Positions 486 through 50,639 of a stretch of DNA of 51,312 nt are shown here, piece by piece. The stretch is taken from the NCBI RefSeq assembly GCF_900116295.1, contig NZ_FPAF01000022.1, positions 1 through 51,312 of the forward strand, given 5' to 3'. Made by a program: the position numbers and the translations under genes. Every line of letters begins with the position of its first letter. Position 1 is the first letter of the stretch. The DNA is from Bacillus sp. 103mf. GTDB taxonomy: Bacteria > Bacillota > Bacilli > Bacillales > Bacillaceae_G. The notes beneath the pieces are model-generated. The model saw only the letters and a list, made by a program, of their open reading frames with translations. It was not told the origin of the DNA and made no database searches.

Positions 486-2004
<1,519 letters not shown>

Positions 2005-2056
2005 CTATTAAAATTTACAATATATACAGTATATCATTTTCTATCCAACTAGAAAA

Positions 2057-2080
2057 ACTGCCAGCAACGGGCTGGCAGTT
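2057..2080 (-). terminator. dusB/folate operon terminator
   Basis: Ten-base arms AACTGCCAGC and GCTGGCAGTT around a short loop are followed on the minus strand by TTTTTCT. It lies about 70 bp past the dusB stop and closes the pab-fol-dusB operon before lysS. Confidence 0.85.
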
Positions 2081-2148
2081 CTTCTTTCTTAGACGTAATT
2101 ATAGGTAGTAAAAATGGGAATGTCAAACACTCCTTCTATCACTTACTA

Positions 2149-3147
2149 TTATCCGACTTGAATAGATTTTTGTTTCGCTTCTACTTCTTCTACGAACGCC
2201 ATCAATAAAGAAGCAAGATCCGCACGTGTATTACAACCATTAATTTCATTGCGCACTCTCGCATTACCGCGAACACCTTTTAAGTACCAAGCCGCATGTT
2301 TGCGCATTTCTCGAACTGCGATGTCTTCATTTTTCAAATCAATAAGACGATCTAAATGCAACATACATACGTCAATTTTTTCGCGTACAGATGGCTCCGG
2401 CATTAATTCACCAGTCTCTAAATATTTTACTGTACGATAAATCATCCATGGATTACCAAGTGCTGCACGCCCAATCATTACACCATCTACACCAATTTCA
2501 TCTAACATGCGCTTAGCATCTTGCGGCGTTTCTACATCACCATTTCCGATAACAGGAATGTTGACAGCCTGTTTTACTTGCTTAATAATATTCCAGTCCG
2601 CTTTCCCTTCATACATTTGAACACGAGTACGACCATGAACCGCAACAGCCTGACCACCCGCACGTTCAACTGCCTGAGCGTTTTCAATCGCAAAGATGTG
2701 ATCTTCATCCCAGCCAATACGCATTTTTACTGTTACCGGCTTCTCAACTGCATCTACTACCGCCGCTACCATTTCGTATACTTTATTCGGATCAAGTAAC
2801 CACTTTGCACCCGCATCACATTTTGTGATTTTCGGCACTGGACAGCCCATATTAATATCGATAATATCCGCTGTTGTATTTTTATCTACATATTTTGCCG
2901 CTTCTACAAGTGTTTCTTTTTCCCCGCCAAAAATTTGCAGACTTAACGGCTTTTCTCTCTCATCAATATATAACATATCTAACGTTTTTTGATTGTTAAA
3001 CAAAATCGCCTTATCACTTACCATTTCCGCACATACTAATCCCGCACCAAATTCTTTCACCGTTAAACGAAATGCAGAGTTACATACTCCTGCCATTGGC
3101 GCTAGCACAACCGGATTTTTCATTTCAATGTTTGCAATCTTTAACAC
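2149..3147 (-). CDS. dusB: tRNA-dihydrouridine synthase
   Basis: FMN enzyme that reduces uridines in the tRNA D-loop, with NADPH as reductant. At 332 aa it matches B. subtilis DusB (YacF). A TIM barrel opens with VVLAPMAGVCNSAFR; INMGCPVPK carries the catalytic Cys and HGRTR is in the FMN/RNA site. The start codon is GTG at 3147, with GGGAGGC 6-7 bases upstream. It is the last gene of the folate operon, 24 bp after yazB. The link to folate synthesis is one of gene order, not pathway. Confidence 0.95.
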   Translation of the reverse strand: MLKIANIEMKNPVVLAPMAGVCNSAFRLTVKEFGAGLVCAEMVSDKAILFNNQKTLDMLYIDEREKPLSLQIFGGEKETLVEAAKYVDKNTTADIIDINMGCPVPKITKCDAGAKWLLDPNKVYEMVAAVVDAVEKPVTVKMRIGWDEDHIFAIENAQAVERAGGQAVAVHGRTRVQMYEGKADWNIIKQVKQAVNIPVIGNGDVETPQDAKRMLDEIGVDGVMIGRAALGNPWMIYRTVKYLETGELMPEPSVREKIDVCMLHLDRLIDLKNEDIAVREMRKHAAWYLKGVRGNARVRNEINGCNTRADLASLLMAFVEEVEAKQKSIQVG

Positions 3148-32464: not shown

Positions 32465-32630
32465 TAGATGCAAATTGAAAAAATGATATAAAAATCTCTT
32501 TCTTTTTCAAGGAGAATACCTCGCCATATGCAAGTGTGAAAACAAAGGTAAAGAGGAAATGCAGATTAGTTGTTTCTGCATAGCAGCGACTTATATGCTA
32601 AAAAATCAAAATCGATTTATATAATATATG
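32465..32630 (+). repeat. Second dispersed intergenic repeat, copy 1
   Basis: Shares the blocks CAAATTGAAAAAATGA, TTTCTGCATAGCAGC, ACTTATATG and AAAAATCAAAAT, in the same order, with the complement of 50553-50639; about 75 nt here have no counterpart there. It fills much of the 435-bp gap between spoVG and glmU. GCAGATTAGTTGTTTCTGC also forms a short hairpin. No gene, and family name unknown to me. Confidence 0.65.
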
Positions 32631-32640
32631 AAAACAACAA

Positions 32641-32670
32641 CAAACTCCTGTAAATGCTTACAGGAGTTTG
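32641..32670 (-). terminator. spoVG terminator
   Basis: Perfect 13-base arms CAAACTCCTGTAA (32641-32653) and TTACAGGAGTTTG (32658-32670), loop of four. The run after it on the minus strand is TTGTTGTT. It lies about 45 bp past spoVG. Confidence 0.8.
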
Positions 32671-32715
32671 CCAAAATTATAGAGCTCTTCTTTTAGAGCT
32701 CTTCTTATTCGAATT

Positions 32716-33009
32716 TTACGAAGCTCCAGCTTCTTCAAACTCAACTTCTTCTAACTCGCCTAAACGGTGATACTCAGTTAAAACCGCATCTTGAATCTTA
32801 GAACGAGTATTAGAATTAATTGGATGAGCAATATCACGGAACTCTCCATCTGGAGTACGTTTACTTGGCATTGCTACAAATAATCCATTATTGCCATCAA
32901 TTACACGAATATCATGAACAACAAATTCATGGTCTAGTGTAATAGAAGCAATCGCTCGCATGCGGCCTTCTGTGTTTACGCGGCGTAATCTTACGTCAGT
33001 CACTTCCAT
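32716..33009 (-). CDS. spoVG: Septation/regulatory protein SpoVG
   Basis: Small, abundant nucleic-acid-binding regulator (97 aa), a classical sigma-H and AbrB-controlled gene needed for cortex formation. It has the family opening [19 protein letters not shown] and the core [20 protein letters not shown], then an acidic end. ATG at 33009. A strong sigma-H promoter lies 45-73 bp upstream in a very AT-rich stretch that AbrB could bind. Confidence 0.97.
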
Positions 33010-33053
33010 CTTGTGTTCACCACCCTTTTTCTAAATAAGCGATATATTTCTAT

Positions 33054-33082
33054 AAATTCCACAAATGTTCTATTTTTCCTTC
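33054..33082 (-). promoter_or_regulatory. spoVG promoter, sigma-H
   Basis: On the minus strand GAAGGAAAA (33082-33074), an 11-bp spacer and GTGGAATTT (33062-33054) match the sigma-H consensus RNAGGAWWW-N11/12-RNNGAATWW at every fixed position. The DNA just upstream (33083-33150) is strongly AT-rich, as at the AbrB-bound spoVG control region of B. subtilis. Confidence 0.85.
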
Positions 33083-33162
33083 AATTTTTCAAAAATTTTT
33101 AAGATAAAAATTTTTATATAAGTAAAATATATAAATAAATATAAGTTATCGCTTACAATTCC

Positions 33163-33537
33163 TTATTTTACAAGGGCAATAACTTCAATTTCAACAGATA
33201 CATCTTTCGGTAATTTCACTACTTGTACACAAGAACGTGCTGGTTTATTTGTAGAAAAATATGTACTATATACTTCATTTACCGCATCAAAATCATTCAT
33301 ATCTTTTAAAAATACAGTTGTTTTTACCACTGTCTCAAACGATGCTCCCGCTTCTATTAATACTGCCTTTAAATTTTGAAACACTTGCTCTGTTTGTTCC
33401 TTTACATCCCCAGTCACAAGTTCACCATTTACTGTTAAAGGAATTTGTCCAGAACTGTAAAACATATTATTTACAATCATACCTTGTGAATATGGACCAA
33501 TCACCTGCGGCGCCTCATTTGTTTGAACTACTTTCAT
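33163..33537 (-). CDS. ridA: RidA-family enamine/imine deaminase
   Basis: Hydrolyses reactive 2-aminoacrylate-type enamines made by PLP enzymes. At 124 aa (YabJ in B. subtilis) it shows [20 protein letters not shown] near the N-terminus and [19 protein letters not shown] near the end; the Arg and Glu there are in the RidA active site. ATG at 33537. In B. subtilis, yabJ follows purR and is read with it. Here purR and ridA are separated by about 500 bp with a terminator, a MITE-like element and a hairpin. Confidence 0.96.
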
Positions 33538-33602
33538 TATTCCTCACCCTTTTATATTTTTTATCCTGCTTTTACAAGCTGCCCCTAACAAGAAACCTAT
33601 TG

Positions 33603-33652
33603 TTTTAGCAGGTGGTAAGCCTCCAAAGTTGGGAGCTTACCACCTGCTAAAA
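33603..33652. other. Perfect 18-bp inverted repeat upstream of ridA
   Basis: TTTTAGCAGGTGGTAAGC (33603-33620) and its exact complement (33635-33652) enclose a 14-nt spacer. No clear T run follows on either strand, so it is not a plain terminator. Just beyond, AACTTACTGCTCGTAAATAA resembles the bcr1 tail TCTTACTGCCCGTTAATGC, so it may be a strongly changed bcr1. Confidence 0.7.
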
Positions 33653-33714
33653 CTTACTGCTCGTAAATAATATGACAAAGTACCCAACTGGTAAAAGCTT
33701 ATTATCAATCAGTA

Positions 33715-33935
33715 GTAACTACTCAGCTATACCTTTTAGAAATTTAGAAAAGGGTATGATTCTAGTGAAGATGTGTCTCTCTAGTACTTATAAATTCATT
33801 TTTTGGCATATAGACTGCTGTCATGCAAACAAGGGCAGGAAAAGGCACTGACCGCTCCTATGCATCGCCAGTCCCTCTCGCCCATTTAAAAAAATGCTTT
33901 TCTGTCGGTTTTTCATAAAGTAACTGAGTAGTTAC
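33715..33935. mobile_element. MITE-like element with GTAA inverted ends
   Basis: A 221-bp non-coding unit begins GTAACTACTCAG (33715-33726) and ends with the exact complement CTGAGTAGTTAC (33924-33935). It is flanked by a direct repeat AATCAGTA (33707-33714 and 33936-33943). Ends starting GTAA and an 8-bp target duplication are the IS66-family pattern. It contains no open frame of note. Inside, GCATATAGACTGCTG resembles the second dispersed repeat of this window. It lies between ridA and the purR terminator. Confidence 0.7.
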
Positions 33936-33948
33936 AATCAGTATAAAA

Positions 33949-33974
33949 AAAGATAAAGCAGTTGCTTTATCTTT
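33949..33974 (-). terminator. purR terminator
   Basis: AAAGATAAAGC (33949-33959) and GCTTTATCTTT (33964-33974) around AGTT, followed by a run of T on the minus strand. A second inverted repeat AAACAATCT/AGATTGTTT (34006-34014, 34022-34030) lies right after the stop codon. Confidence 0.8.
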
Positions 33975-34033
33975 TCCCCCGCTCTGACGAACAGTATCTT
34001 CTTTAAAACAATCTATGAAGAAGATTGTTTATC

Positions 34034-34882
34034 TTATTCAACTTCTACAATCATATCAGCAAATGGACTTAAAGAATAATTTCCTTTTTCCACCTGAATC
34101 GTCTTTTCTCTCACATCTACTTCAGACAAGCGAATTAACGAAACAAAGTTATCTACAAGTCTTTCCTCAATATCACTTGATTCCACTAAAACACCAATGC
34201 CAACAACATTTGCATTAAATTCCTCAAGCATACTCATCATACCTTGCACTGTTCCGCCAGCCTTCATAAAATCATCAATGATTAATACATTCGCACCTTC
34301 CGGAAGACTACGCTTTGCTAATGTCATCGTTTGAATACGCTTAGAAGAACCTGACACATAATTAATACTTACTGTTGGGCCTTCTGTTACTTTATTATCT
34401 TTTCTAGCAATTACGACTGGGACATTTAAATAATTGGCTACTGCATATGCCAAAGGAATCCCTTTCGTCGCAACTGTCATAACAGCGTCAATTGGCTGTC
34501 TTGCAAATACAGAAGCAAAAAGTCTTCCTGCACCATTAATGTAGCGCGGATTACTTAAAAGATCCGTCATATATAAATAACCACCCGGAAGAATACGATC
34601 AGGATTCTCAAATAATTTACAAAGCTCACTAATAATTTGCTTTGCTTCCTTCTGACTTATATATGGGATATATTTCACTCCTCCTGCTGCGCCTGGTACC
34701 GTTTGTAATGTGCCGACTCCTTGTTGTTCAAACGTTTGTTTAATAATAACTAAATCTTCACTAATAGAAGATTTAGCAGATTGATACCGTTCAGCAAAAA
34801 AAGTGAGAGAAACTAACTGACGAGGGTTTTGAAGCAAATAATAAGTCATATCGACTAATCTTGTACTTCGTCTAATTTTCAT
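34034..34882 (-). CDS. purR: Purine operon repressor PurR
   Basis: PRPP-sensing repressor of purine genes. At 282 aa: N-terminal winged-helix domain (about 1-72, MKIRRSTRLVDMTYYLLQNP) and a PRTase-like domain with the PRPP motif VLIIDDFMKAGGT. B. subtilis PurR binds paired PurBoxes and responds to PRPP, made here by prs. ATG at 34882 with GAGGTGAG upstream. It follows ispE by 54 bp, and a PurBox-like site lies between them, which suggests self-control. Confidence 0.97.
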   Translation of the reverse strand: MKIRRSTRLVDMTYYLLQNPRQLVSLTFFAERYQSAKSSISEDLVIIKQTFEQQGVGTLQTVPGAAGGVKYIPYISQKEAKQIISELCKLFENPDRILPGGYLYMTDLLSNPRYINGAGRLFASVFARQPIDAVMTVATKGIPLAYAVANYLNVPVVIARKDNKVTEGPTVSINYVSGSSKRIQTMTLAKRSLPEGANVLIIDDFMKAGGTVQGMMSMLEEFNANVVGIGVLVESSDIEERLVDNFVSLIRLSEVDVREKTIQVEKGNYSLSPFADMIVEVE

Positions 34883-34895
34883 GCTCTCACCTCAA

Positions 34896-34907
34896 ATTAC
34901 GAATATT
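34896..34907. promoter_or_regulatory. Candidate PurBox upstream of purR
   Basis: ATTACGAATATT on the plus strand matches the PurBox AWWWCGAACWWT at 11 of 12 positions (C to T at position 9), 14 bp upstream of purR. The expected inverted partner about 16 bp away is only a weak match, so this is provisional. Confidence 0.4.
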
Positions 34908-34936
34908 TTAAACAAATCATAACTTATTATACGCCT

Positions 34937-35806
34937 TTATTCAAGACCTTCCCGCTCTCCTAATAAACGAACTGCGTATACTTGATCACAAAATCCTTTT
35001 AAACCGTTATAAATACGGTGCATGCGTGAATCATGACGAACTAAACCAAAAACTGTGGGACCGCTACCACTCATTAAAACCGCATCTGCACCGAAACGTT
35101 TCATCTGAGCCTTAATATGTGCAACTTCAGGATGCATTGAAAATGTTACATCTTCTAATACATTGCCAACAGCATGACAAATTCCCTCATAGTCACCATT
35201 TTGAATCACTTCAACCATACGGTTTACATCTGGATGTGTTACACGATTTAATCGTAAATTCCCATATACGTCAGCTGTAGATACACCAATATGTGGTTTA
35301 GCCAAAATAACCCAGCAAGAAGGAGGTGTCTTAATGTGTTCGATTTTTTCTCCACGACCTGTTGCAATGGCAGTTCCGCCATATACACAAAACGATACAT
35401 CTGATCCAATCTCGGCACCTAATTCTGCAAGTTCATCAATTGTAAGTCCAAGATTCCATAATTGATTCAGACCTCTTAATGCTGCAGCTGCATCGCTGCT
35501 TCCACCTGCTAAGCCTGCTGCAACCGGAATCGTTTTTTCAATTGTAATAGATACTCCGCTTTTTACTTGAAAGCGTTCCTTTAACAATTTTGCCGCCTGA
35601 TAAGCTAAATTTCTTTGGTCGTCTGGGACATAACGGTTATGAGATACAATTTCAATCCGGTCTTCAGATAACTCTGTTAGTTCTAACCGATCTGCTAAAT
35701 CAATTGTTGTCATAATCATTTTAACTTCATGATAACCGTCCGGTCTTTTCCCTAGTACATCTAACGACAAATTAATTTTTGCTGGTGCTTTAACTAGTAG
35801 CTTCAA
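34937..35806 (-). CDS. ispE: 4-diphosphocytidyl-2-C-methyl-D-erythritol kinase
   Basis: GHMP kinase of the MEP isoprenoid pathway. At 289 aa: [20 protein letters not shown] at the start, the ATP loop [15 protein letters not shown], and [11 protein letters not shown] near the end. Start set at TTG 35806: homologues begin [10 protein letters not shown] there and AGGTGA lies 5-6 bases upstream; GTG at 35815 would add three residues. The 190 bp between it and sspF contain no gene. Confidence 0.95.
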
Positions 35807-49057: not shown

Positions 49058-50467
49058 CTATATATCGTATACAGTAATATTTTTTATATTTCCTTGAAAA
49101 CGTGCACCAGTCTCTTCTAAACCAGAAATTTGATTTATGTGCTCTAATGTAATTTCCTCTCCATACATGACTAGAGGAATCCCTGGTGGATAAGGTATAA
49201 TCATATCGGCCGCAATCATGCCTAACGCCTCGCGTAATGGCACAACTTTTTTCTTATATTTTTCCAACTGTTTATATGTAAATGACAAAGAAGATAAATT
49301 ATCCTTATAAGGATAATTTATATGGGGCTTACTATCTTCTACATCGTATGAGCATAGTACATCTTGTATCTTATCAATCACTTGTATATAATCTTCATTT
49401 ACTTGGAGCGGTAAAATAAGTAAAACATTATATGGATCTGCCATTTCAACATAGATACCTATCTCTTCAAATAGACGTTGTAATTCATATCCAGAGAGCT
49501 TACAGCGTGTTTGCACTGTTACTTTTAATGCATCTTGTATTGGATAGTCTAAAACAGCAAGTTGTGGAATACGATTTAATGTCTCGCGAAACCGCTGAGT
49601 AAATGCAGCAATCTCCTTTCCTCCCTCTTCTCTTATCTTCGCTAATACAAAACGAGCTATATCTAGTGAAGCCATTATTGGATAAGAAGGACTACTAGAT
49701 TGCAACATATTTAAATAAAAAGAAACTTTTTCTTCATCAACAAGCGAACTATTTACGTGTAAGTATGAACCCATTGTCATTGCTGGTAATGTTTTATGTG
49801 CCGAATGAACAACAATATCAGCCCCATACGCAAGCGCTGATGTTGGAAAAGGCTCCCCGATACAAAAATGCGCTCCATGTGCCTCATCTACTAAAACAGG
49901 AATACCATTTTTATGCGCTAATGCAATACTCTTTTCTAAATCTACACCCACACCATAATAGTTTGGATGCGTTAAAATAAGAGCTTTCGTTTGTGGATAT
50001 TGCAAAATTGCATCTTCAATCGTTTCATACGGGACACCAACTGGTACACCAGATTTTTCATCAATCCATGGCTTTAGAAAGACAGGACGCGCCCCAGTCA
50101 ATTTAAGTCCATTTATAATCGATTTATGAGCGTTTCTTTGTACAAGAACTGTATCATGTTCATTACAGCACGCTAACAACATAGCTAAATTCCCAACAGT
50201 TGAACCATTAATTAAAAAATGACTTTTTTGTACTGCATATAGCTCGGCTAATAAACACTGTGCTTCTTCTATACATTCAAATGGACCATGAAGATCATCA
50301 AGTCCTGTAAGTTCTGTTACATCAATAGAAAGTATATCATGAAAATACTTTTGTACTTCGTGTGGAAAATTTGTTCCATTTTTATGCCCCGGAACATGAA
50401 AGGATATAGGTTTCTTACTTGCAAAGGTCTTTAATGCTTCATATAAAGGCATTTTTCTTTGATCCAT
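49058..50467 (-). CDS. yaaO: PLP-dependent Orn/Lys/Arg decarboxylase-family protein (YaaO)
   Basis: Fold type I PLP enzyme of 469 aa. ISFHVPGHKNGT at the start, VDEAHGAHFCIG with the PLP Asp, and the PLP lysine in VVHSAHKTLPAMTMGS. The C-terminal decarboxylase domain is about 350-469. B. subtilis YaaO is similar; the substrate (lysine, arginine or ornithine) is not shown here. Start ATG at 50467 has GGAAGA 6 bases upstream; GTG 50473 adds two residues. Confidence 0.93.
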   Translation of the reverse strand: MDQRKMPLYEALKTFASKKPISFHVPGHKNGTNFPHEVQKYFHDILSIDVTELTGLDDLHGPFECIEEAQCLLAELYAVQKSHFLINGSTVGNLAMLLACCNEHDTVLVQRNAHKSIINGLKLTGARPVFLKPWIDEKSGVPVGVPYETIEDAILQYPQTKALILTHPNYYGVGVDLEKSIALAHKNGIPVLVDEAHGAHFCIGEPFPTSALAYGADIVVHSAHKTLPAMTMGSYLHVNSSLVDEEKVSFYLNMLQSSSPSYPIMASLDIARFVLAKIREEGGKEIAAFTQRFRETLNRIPQLAVLDYPIQDALKVTVQTRCKLSGYELQRLFEEIGIYVEMADPYNVLLILPLQVNEDYIQVIDKIQDVLCSYDVEDSKPHINYPYKDNLSSLSFTYKQLEKYKKKVVPLREALGMIAADMIIPYPPGIPLVMYGEEITLEHINQISGLEETGARFQGNIKNITVYDI

Positions 50468-50527
50468 ATTCACTCTTCCTTACTATTCATTCTCTCTATA
50501 TTATACAGAGATTTTCACAAAAAAAAT

Positions 50528-50552: not shown

Positions 50553-50639
50553 ATATAACTCCATTTTTATTTTTCAACATATAAGTTGCTGCTATGCAGA
50601 AAAAAATGACCTGCACTCATTTTTTCAATTTGTATTTTT
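50553..50639 (-). repeat. Second dispersed intergenic repeat, copy 2
   Basis: On the minus strand, right after the csfB stop: ACAAATTGAAAAAATGA, TTTCTGCATAGCAGC, ACTTATATG, AAAAATAAAAAT, in the same order as at 32465-32630. It begins at the stop codon of csfB. Confidence 0.65.

Follow-up and report, generated by a model that had tools for sequence, protein, structure and literature searches.

What occupies the gap between ridA and purR in Bacillus sp. 103mf, where did it come from, and does it matter for the genes on either side? In B. subtilis, purR and ridA are co-transcribed. In the window (the whole stretch of DNA that was analysed, 51,312 nucleotides in length) both genes lie on the minus strand and are separated by 496 bp, and the original prediction had placed within this gap a MITE-like element that may have separated the transcription of ridA from that of purR. 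We confirm the location of the element and, from our point of view, it is probably a non-autonomous element with ISBst12/IS66 ends, which was most likely moved in trans and which harbours a nested, bcr1-like repeat.

A short element with inverted ends and a target duplication

The element proper comprises 221 bp (33715-33935), or positions 33707-33943 with its direct repeats included (Table 1). The perfect 12-bp inverted ends and the flanking 8-bp duplication, from which the prediction had started, were both confirmed, as the terminal inverted repeats GTAACTACTCAG match at 12/12 positions (14/15, or 93% of 15, when extended) and the direct repeats agree at 8/8. This combination of a 12-bp inverted repeat with an 8-bp duplication occurs a single time in the window. 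In 200 first-order shuffles of the window, with the spacing set to 80-600 bp, an exact 8-bp inverted repeat with an 8-bp target duplication is expected 0.025 times per shuffled window, and by extrapolation the 12 + 8 combination about 1e-4 times; its occurrence at 33707-33943 is far above chance. No GTAACTACTCAG end beyond these two was found in the window.

Table 1. Positions of the element, its parts, related repeats and neighbouring features in the window.
Feature	Position	Strand	Basis
Left copy of the 8-bp target duplication, AATCAGTA	33707..33714	+	Direct repeat comparison, shuffle test
Left terminal inverted repeat GTAACTACTCAG, ISBst12/IS66-type end	33715..33726	+	Identical to 12 bp at L137, L135 and L140
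Outer left arm of the IS66-ended element	33715..33783	+	Similarity searches
Putative nested bcr1-like repeat	~33784..33920	+	Comparison with Ectobacillus copies and window copy A; borders by eye, ends degenerate
Conserved core (AAAGGNNNTGACCGCTNCTA onwards) of the bcr1-like repeat	33833..33913	+	Sequence-only model, 50.4 bits
Right terminal inverted repeat	33924..33935	-	Inverted repeat comparison
Right copy of the 8-bp target duplication	33936..33943	+	Direct repeat comparison, shuffle test
Bcr1-like copy A, ~159 bp, without the core, borders approximate	32465..32623	-	In the glmU-spoVG gap; full-length profiles
Bcr1-like fragment B	50553..50621	+	Joint profile, E 1.5e-4; 84% over 63 bp with A
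ridA (yabJ)	33163..33537	-	Matched beside purR in fetched loci
purR	34034..34882	-	Used as search query
Terminator-like hairpin downstream of purR, on the purR side of the element	33948..33975	-	Folding, comparison with L002

That no open frame lies inside was likewise borne out, given that the element contains no ORF of at least 60 aa; a 59-aa frame that runs across its left end (33672-33851, plus strand) was taken as chance. The element has no coding function. Because it holds no ORF of at least 60 aa, and hence not the single DDE transposase ORF, it is not an insertion sequence itself and is only IS66-ended.

Like bacterial MITEs such as MITEPsy1 (described in the accessible text of PMC3189936), the element is short and non-coding, and it has inverted ends and a target duplication. 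In these respects the term MITE-like holds, whereas the high copy number that the term also implies was not found: bacterial MITEs occur in multiple copies, while of the element one full copy was seen in the sequences searched, with ends of the IS66 type. A second full copy was found neither in the 19 genomes of the Ectobacillus panaciterrae family group nor among the 2 candidates per genome that were scored in 397 genomes of the order, and the whole element had no match among plasmids and phages at E 1e-5. Three matches of 27-29 bp (L090, L207 and L208; E 6e-4 to 8e-4 per genome) were taken as chance, and a match in a viral contig (L089) is confined to 20 bp of DNA that looks coding by eye, the rest of the element being absent. 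The outer left arm has no convincing homologue past its first 12 bp; its plasmid matches, from 33 records, are all weak, and the best of them (E 0.01) falls in an annotated hypothetical-protein gene of Priestia.

Insertion sequences of the ISBst12 group and the origin of the ends

GTAA ends and an 8-bp duplication had been read as an IS66 pattern. This assignment is supported and, because of the 12-bp ends and the duplication, can be narrowed to the ISBst12 group, of which full elements with matching ends were found. A search with the Pfam model PF03050 for IS66 transposases in the 19 genomes of the E. panaciterrae (G001) family group gave matches in four of them (4/19). One locus (L137) represents a complete IS66 element of 1669 bp with the ends GTAACTACTCAG and GTAACTATTCAG and the duplication AAATTACT, and at two others (L135 and L140) GTAACTACTCAG lies beside transposase genes; the 12-bp end of the element is identical at 12/12 positions to the left end of the former and to the ends at the latter two. 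At a threshold of E 1e-80, 9 of 299 genomes of the order encode relatives of the L135 transposase, and at 1e-60 such relatives are also found in 48 plasmid records. At L135 itself (G005, near 1300-3060) the far side of the ISBst12-type copy runs, by eye, into an IS66 end of the GTAAGCG type, one IS66 element apparently having inserted into another.

Altogether, 52 loci were examined and yielded 16 full IS66 elements with GTAA ends and a duplication of 7-8/8 bp, the other 36 being partial or broken, repeating a site, or having no duplication that was found (among them L186 and L187). The duplication is 8/8 in 15 of the 16, and in 15 of the 16 both ends are 10-12/12 identical to GTAACTACTCAG, although the latter 15 are not independent, 12 of them being copies within four genomes (G301, G164, G281 and G138) and the rest L137, L185, which is annotated as ISGst1, and L188. 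The sole full element of the GTAAGCG type (L131) matches GTAACTACTCAG at only 5-6/12 positions.

The exact 12-mer GTAACTAYTCAG occurs at 7 sites in genomes G001-G005 compared to 4 sites for the reversed control. This count alone says little, and the case for a link depends on the identity of the individual sites: four are located at IS66 transposase loci, at one (L199) the L137 end sequence recurs, another (L200) resembles an IS66 remnant, and the last (L203) belongs to no recognised element. The assignment of GTAACTAYTCAG as the end of single-ORF ISBst12-type IS66 elements is supported by the sequence context of these sites.

Published members of the group agree with this assignment as far as their ends are concerned. 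ISDge4 is reported to have the ends GTGACTACTCAGCA and GTAACTGCTCAGCA, to encode its transposase in a single ORF and to be flanked by an 8-bp duplication, and its transposition was observed in Deinococcus (accessible text of PMC12898284); its ends are near-identical to those of the element. ISBst12-subgroup IS66 elements are also described for Geobacillus kaustophilus (PMC8024623, available sections). With ISBst12, ISGst1 and ISDge4 the element shares the GTAACTAYTCAG-type inverted ends and the 8-bp duplication, whereas members of the group measure ~1.55-1.67 kb and carry a transposase gene, and no homology to them was seen beyond the terminal 12 bp. The searches for further copies and for a parental element delivered IS66 elements with the same 12-bp ends; no parental insertion sequence with matching subterminal sequence was found, and the ends of the insertion sequences share only ~12 bp with the element. 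An extended pattern fitted to the subterminal letters of the window (GTAACTACTCAGNTA) gave 6 matches in 299 genomes against 18 for its reversed control and, as these are fewer than the control, they were regarded as chance.

In the mechanism that we favour, the DDE transposase of an ISBst12-type element would most likely act in trans on the GTAACTACTCAG ends. Since no second whole copy was found, the element could nevertheless be a one-off decayed insertion sequence and not a multiplying MITE. The corresponding alternative, namely a single decayed or internally deleted ISBst12-type insertion sequence that was later hit by a bcr1-like repeat and that belongs to no MITE family, has in our estimation a substantial chance of being correct, albeit clearly below even. 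It would account for the absence of any other copy from the genomes, plasmids and phages searched, and for arms that past the first 12 bp are unlike the ends of the insertion sequences seen; the perfect ends and the duplication, on the other hand, fit movement in the present short form, which argues weakly against it. As this alternative overlaps with the preferred explanation, the odds of the two do not add up to one.

A literature search, largely within open-access publications, found no IS66-derived MITE among the papers listed, including in the accessible text of PMC9769881, PMC3189936, PMC3281130 and PMC12888890, and a term search of the available text of a review of prokaryotic MITEs (PMC10969869) returned no mention of IS66. 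The present analysis adds an IS66/ISBst12-ended miniature element, a kind not met in the portion of the literature searched.

A repeat within the element and its relatives

More than half of the 221-bp element is, judged by similarity, an independent and diverged MITE-like repeat of the bcr1-like kind, which the original prediction had missed. When the 221-bp unit was searched with blastn, 17 interior matches at E <= 0.01 were obtained in E. panaciterrae (best 3.3e-7), in which the repeat is interspersed, ~175-215 bp long and divided into at least two subfamilies. Exact occurrences of the core pattern AAAGGNNNTGACCGCTNCTA number 96 in this genome; the reversed control gave none, and the single occurrence in the other 396 genomes is, by eye, unlike the repeat. 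Models that were built from Ectobacillus copies without the window recover the repeat inside the element: a covariance model from 19 copies matches 33821-33914 at 51.7 bits (E 7.1e-12), and the sequence-only model matches the conserved core with an E value of 5.5e-15. The underlying alignment (A1) comprises 19 of 24 rows, each shortened, and leaves out a chance match (L120) as well as the close copies L081, L094, L096 and L097. Matches of the covariance model are found in 3 of the 19 family-group genomes, with at least 150 in G001, 18 in G004 and 7 in G005, and under stricter filters in the same three among 299 genomes of the order. At the six loci read in G004 and G005, copies typically begin with TATATAAGTCTAC and many end with GTACTTATATA, that is, with MITE-like inverted ends; the bcr1-like repeat is hence itself MITE-like, with TTATATAAGT-type ends.

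Two further relatives are present in the window. Using full-length profiles built from 8 + 12 copies with recognisable ends, copy A was found at 32523-32623 on the minus strand with the joint profile (E 1e-4) and at 32465-32622 with the profile of subfamily 2 (E 0.043; E 0.013 in the covariance-model search), while fragment B, for which the joint profile gave the value listed in Table 1, reached E 0.0044 and 0.14 with the single-subfamily profiles. The sequence-only core model found neither of them in the window, because both are devoid of the core. In one three-sequence comparison, the identity between A and B listed in Table 1 has an E value of 9e-17, and A aligns with the left-hand portion of the nested repeat at 75% identity over 40 bp (E 0.004). 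Fragment B is located ~80 bp upstream of the start of a gene on the minus strand (49058-50473).

The inner part alone had no match among plasmids and phages at E 1. The core pattern has 21 viral matches, all of which are by eye unlike the repeat outside the pattern, and three longer exact patterns of the repeat have no viral match. As the consensus fold of the repeat core is weak (-4.15 kcal/mol, with 4 of 12 pairs changed on both sides), we do not claim a conserved RNA structure.

With regard to the order of events, two routes can be imagined, namely that (i) the bcr1-like repeat inserted into the element; or (ii) it was captured before the element moved. The ends of the inner repeat are degenerate and consequently there is no clean duplication that would prove the nesting. 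In E. panaciterrae (L200, G001:C17 near 64776), a bcr1-like repeat stops only a few bases short of an IS66-type end, GTAACTACTCAG; this second case of both element types side by side could be chance. One could speculate that the element is a composite in which ISBst12-type ends carry a bcr1-type passenger, the bcr1 family being older and also expanded in Ectobacillus (at least 150 matches), a proposal that we regard as possible yet somewhat doubtful. If this is true, bcr repeats could be spread by an IS66 transposase.

Judged by its protein sequences and gene order, the window probably derives from the B. cereus group or from a close neighbour of it. The repeats of this group are numbered bcr1-bcr18, of which bcr1-bcr3 (group A) are called MITE-like in the accessible text of PMC3446304. 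The available part of PMC6542083 describes bcr1 as confined to the B. cereus group and as flanked by a TTTAT motif, and a table in PMC2267715, seen as an excerpt, gives a length of 167 bp, with 147 bp in its literature column, as compared to ~159 bp for copy A. The inner part of the element resembles bcr1 and the other group A repeats in being interspersed, non-coding and apparently mobile. The designation bcr1-like refers to this resemblance in size, abundance and mobility and not to membership. In contrast to the restriction described for bcr1, relatives of the inner repeat are abundant in Ectobacillus and, as they occur in 3 of the 19 family-group genomes, either the inner repeat is not bcr1 or bcr1 is not restricted. 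A related proposal, that the 221-bp unit in its entirety has already been published as one of the repeats bcr2 to bcr18, is in our view unlikely. The MITE-like nature ascribed to group A, and the fact that the inner part is an interspersed repeat of high copy number in a relative, would speak for it, whereas those copies of the inner repeat that were read in Ectobacillus have TATATAA-type and not GTAA ends, the nearby GTAACTACTCAG at L200 being present on one side only.

With one mobile repeat inside another, the element with ISBst12/IS66 ends illustrates nesting neatly, if in a rather ordinary way. The bcr1-like family, which is common to the lineage of the window and to Ectobacillus, constitutes an outgroup for tracing the origin of the bcr repeats and their transposase, and this by-product may matter more than the element itself.

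The purR-ridA locus

With purR as query, ridA was found on the same strand beside purR in 80/80 loci, all of other genera (the closest PurR among the matches listed shows 86% identity). The gap between the genes is at most 261 bp in these loci and the genes overlap in 15 of them, an arrangement that fits an operon; the element is present in 0/80. The claim that its insertion uncoupled ridA from purR is not supported, since the element lies downstream of a hairpin after purR (-15.7 kcal/mol, z -5.3) that the element-free Bacillus sp. 165 (L002) has in common with the window, in nearly the same sequence (-14.6 kcal/mol, z -3.3). Weaker hairpins follow purR at two other loci (L001, z -2.5; L004, z -1.6). 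The hairpin is called terminator-like here from its stem and T-run, a predicted function with which a consensus scan of 33500-34100 disagrees, as the scan reported 0 terminator-like sites (0.4 expected) and not this hairpin, whose T-run pairs into the stem. At most, the element adds to the distance from the hairpin to ridA. Residual read-through may be affected, and in the mechanism proposed above a regulatory effect on purR or ridA would be absent. When 33500-34100 was scanned for promoters, 3 weak sites were returned where 1.5 are expected, and hence we do not claim a promoter.

That the sequence is a regulatory RNA structure kept in place between the two genes and not a mobile element is highly improbable: both strands do form more stable folds than shuffled sequences (z -2.9 and -3.4), partly via the terminal repeats, but the sequence is missing from all 80 loci of other genera, two Rfam matches over 32500-35000 both remain far below their gathering scores, and the 8-bp duplication and the IS66-type ends would be left unexplained.

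A search of 33545-33706, on the ridA side of the element, in the 19 genomes gave one match of 26 bp. It lies outside a further hairpin between the element and ridA (33602-33653), the 25-bp arms of which are 92% complementary and 2 nt apart and which may represent another palindromic repeat.
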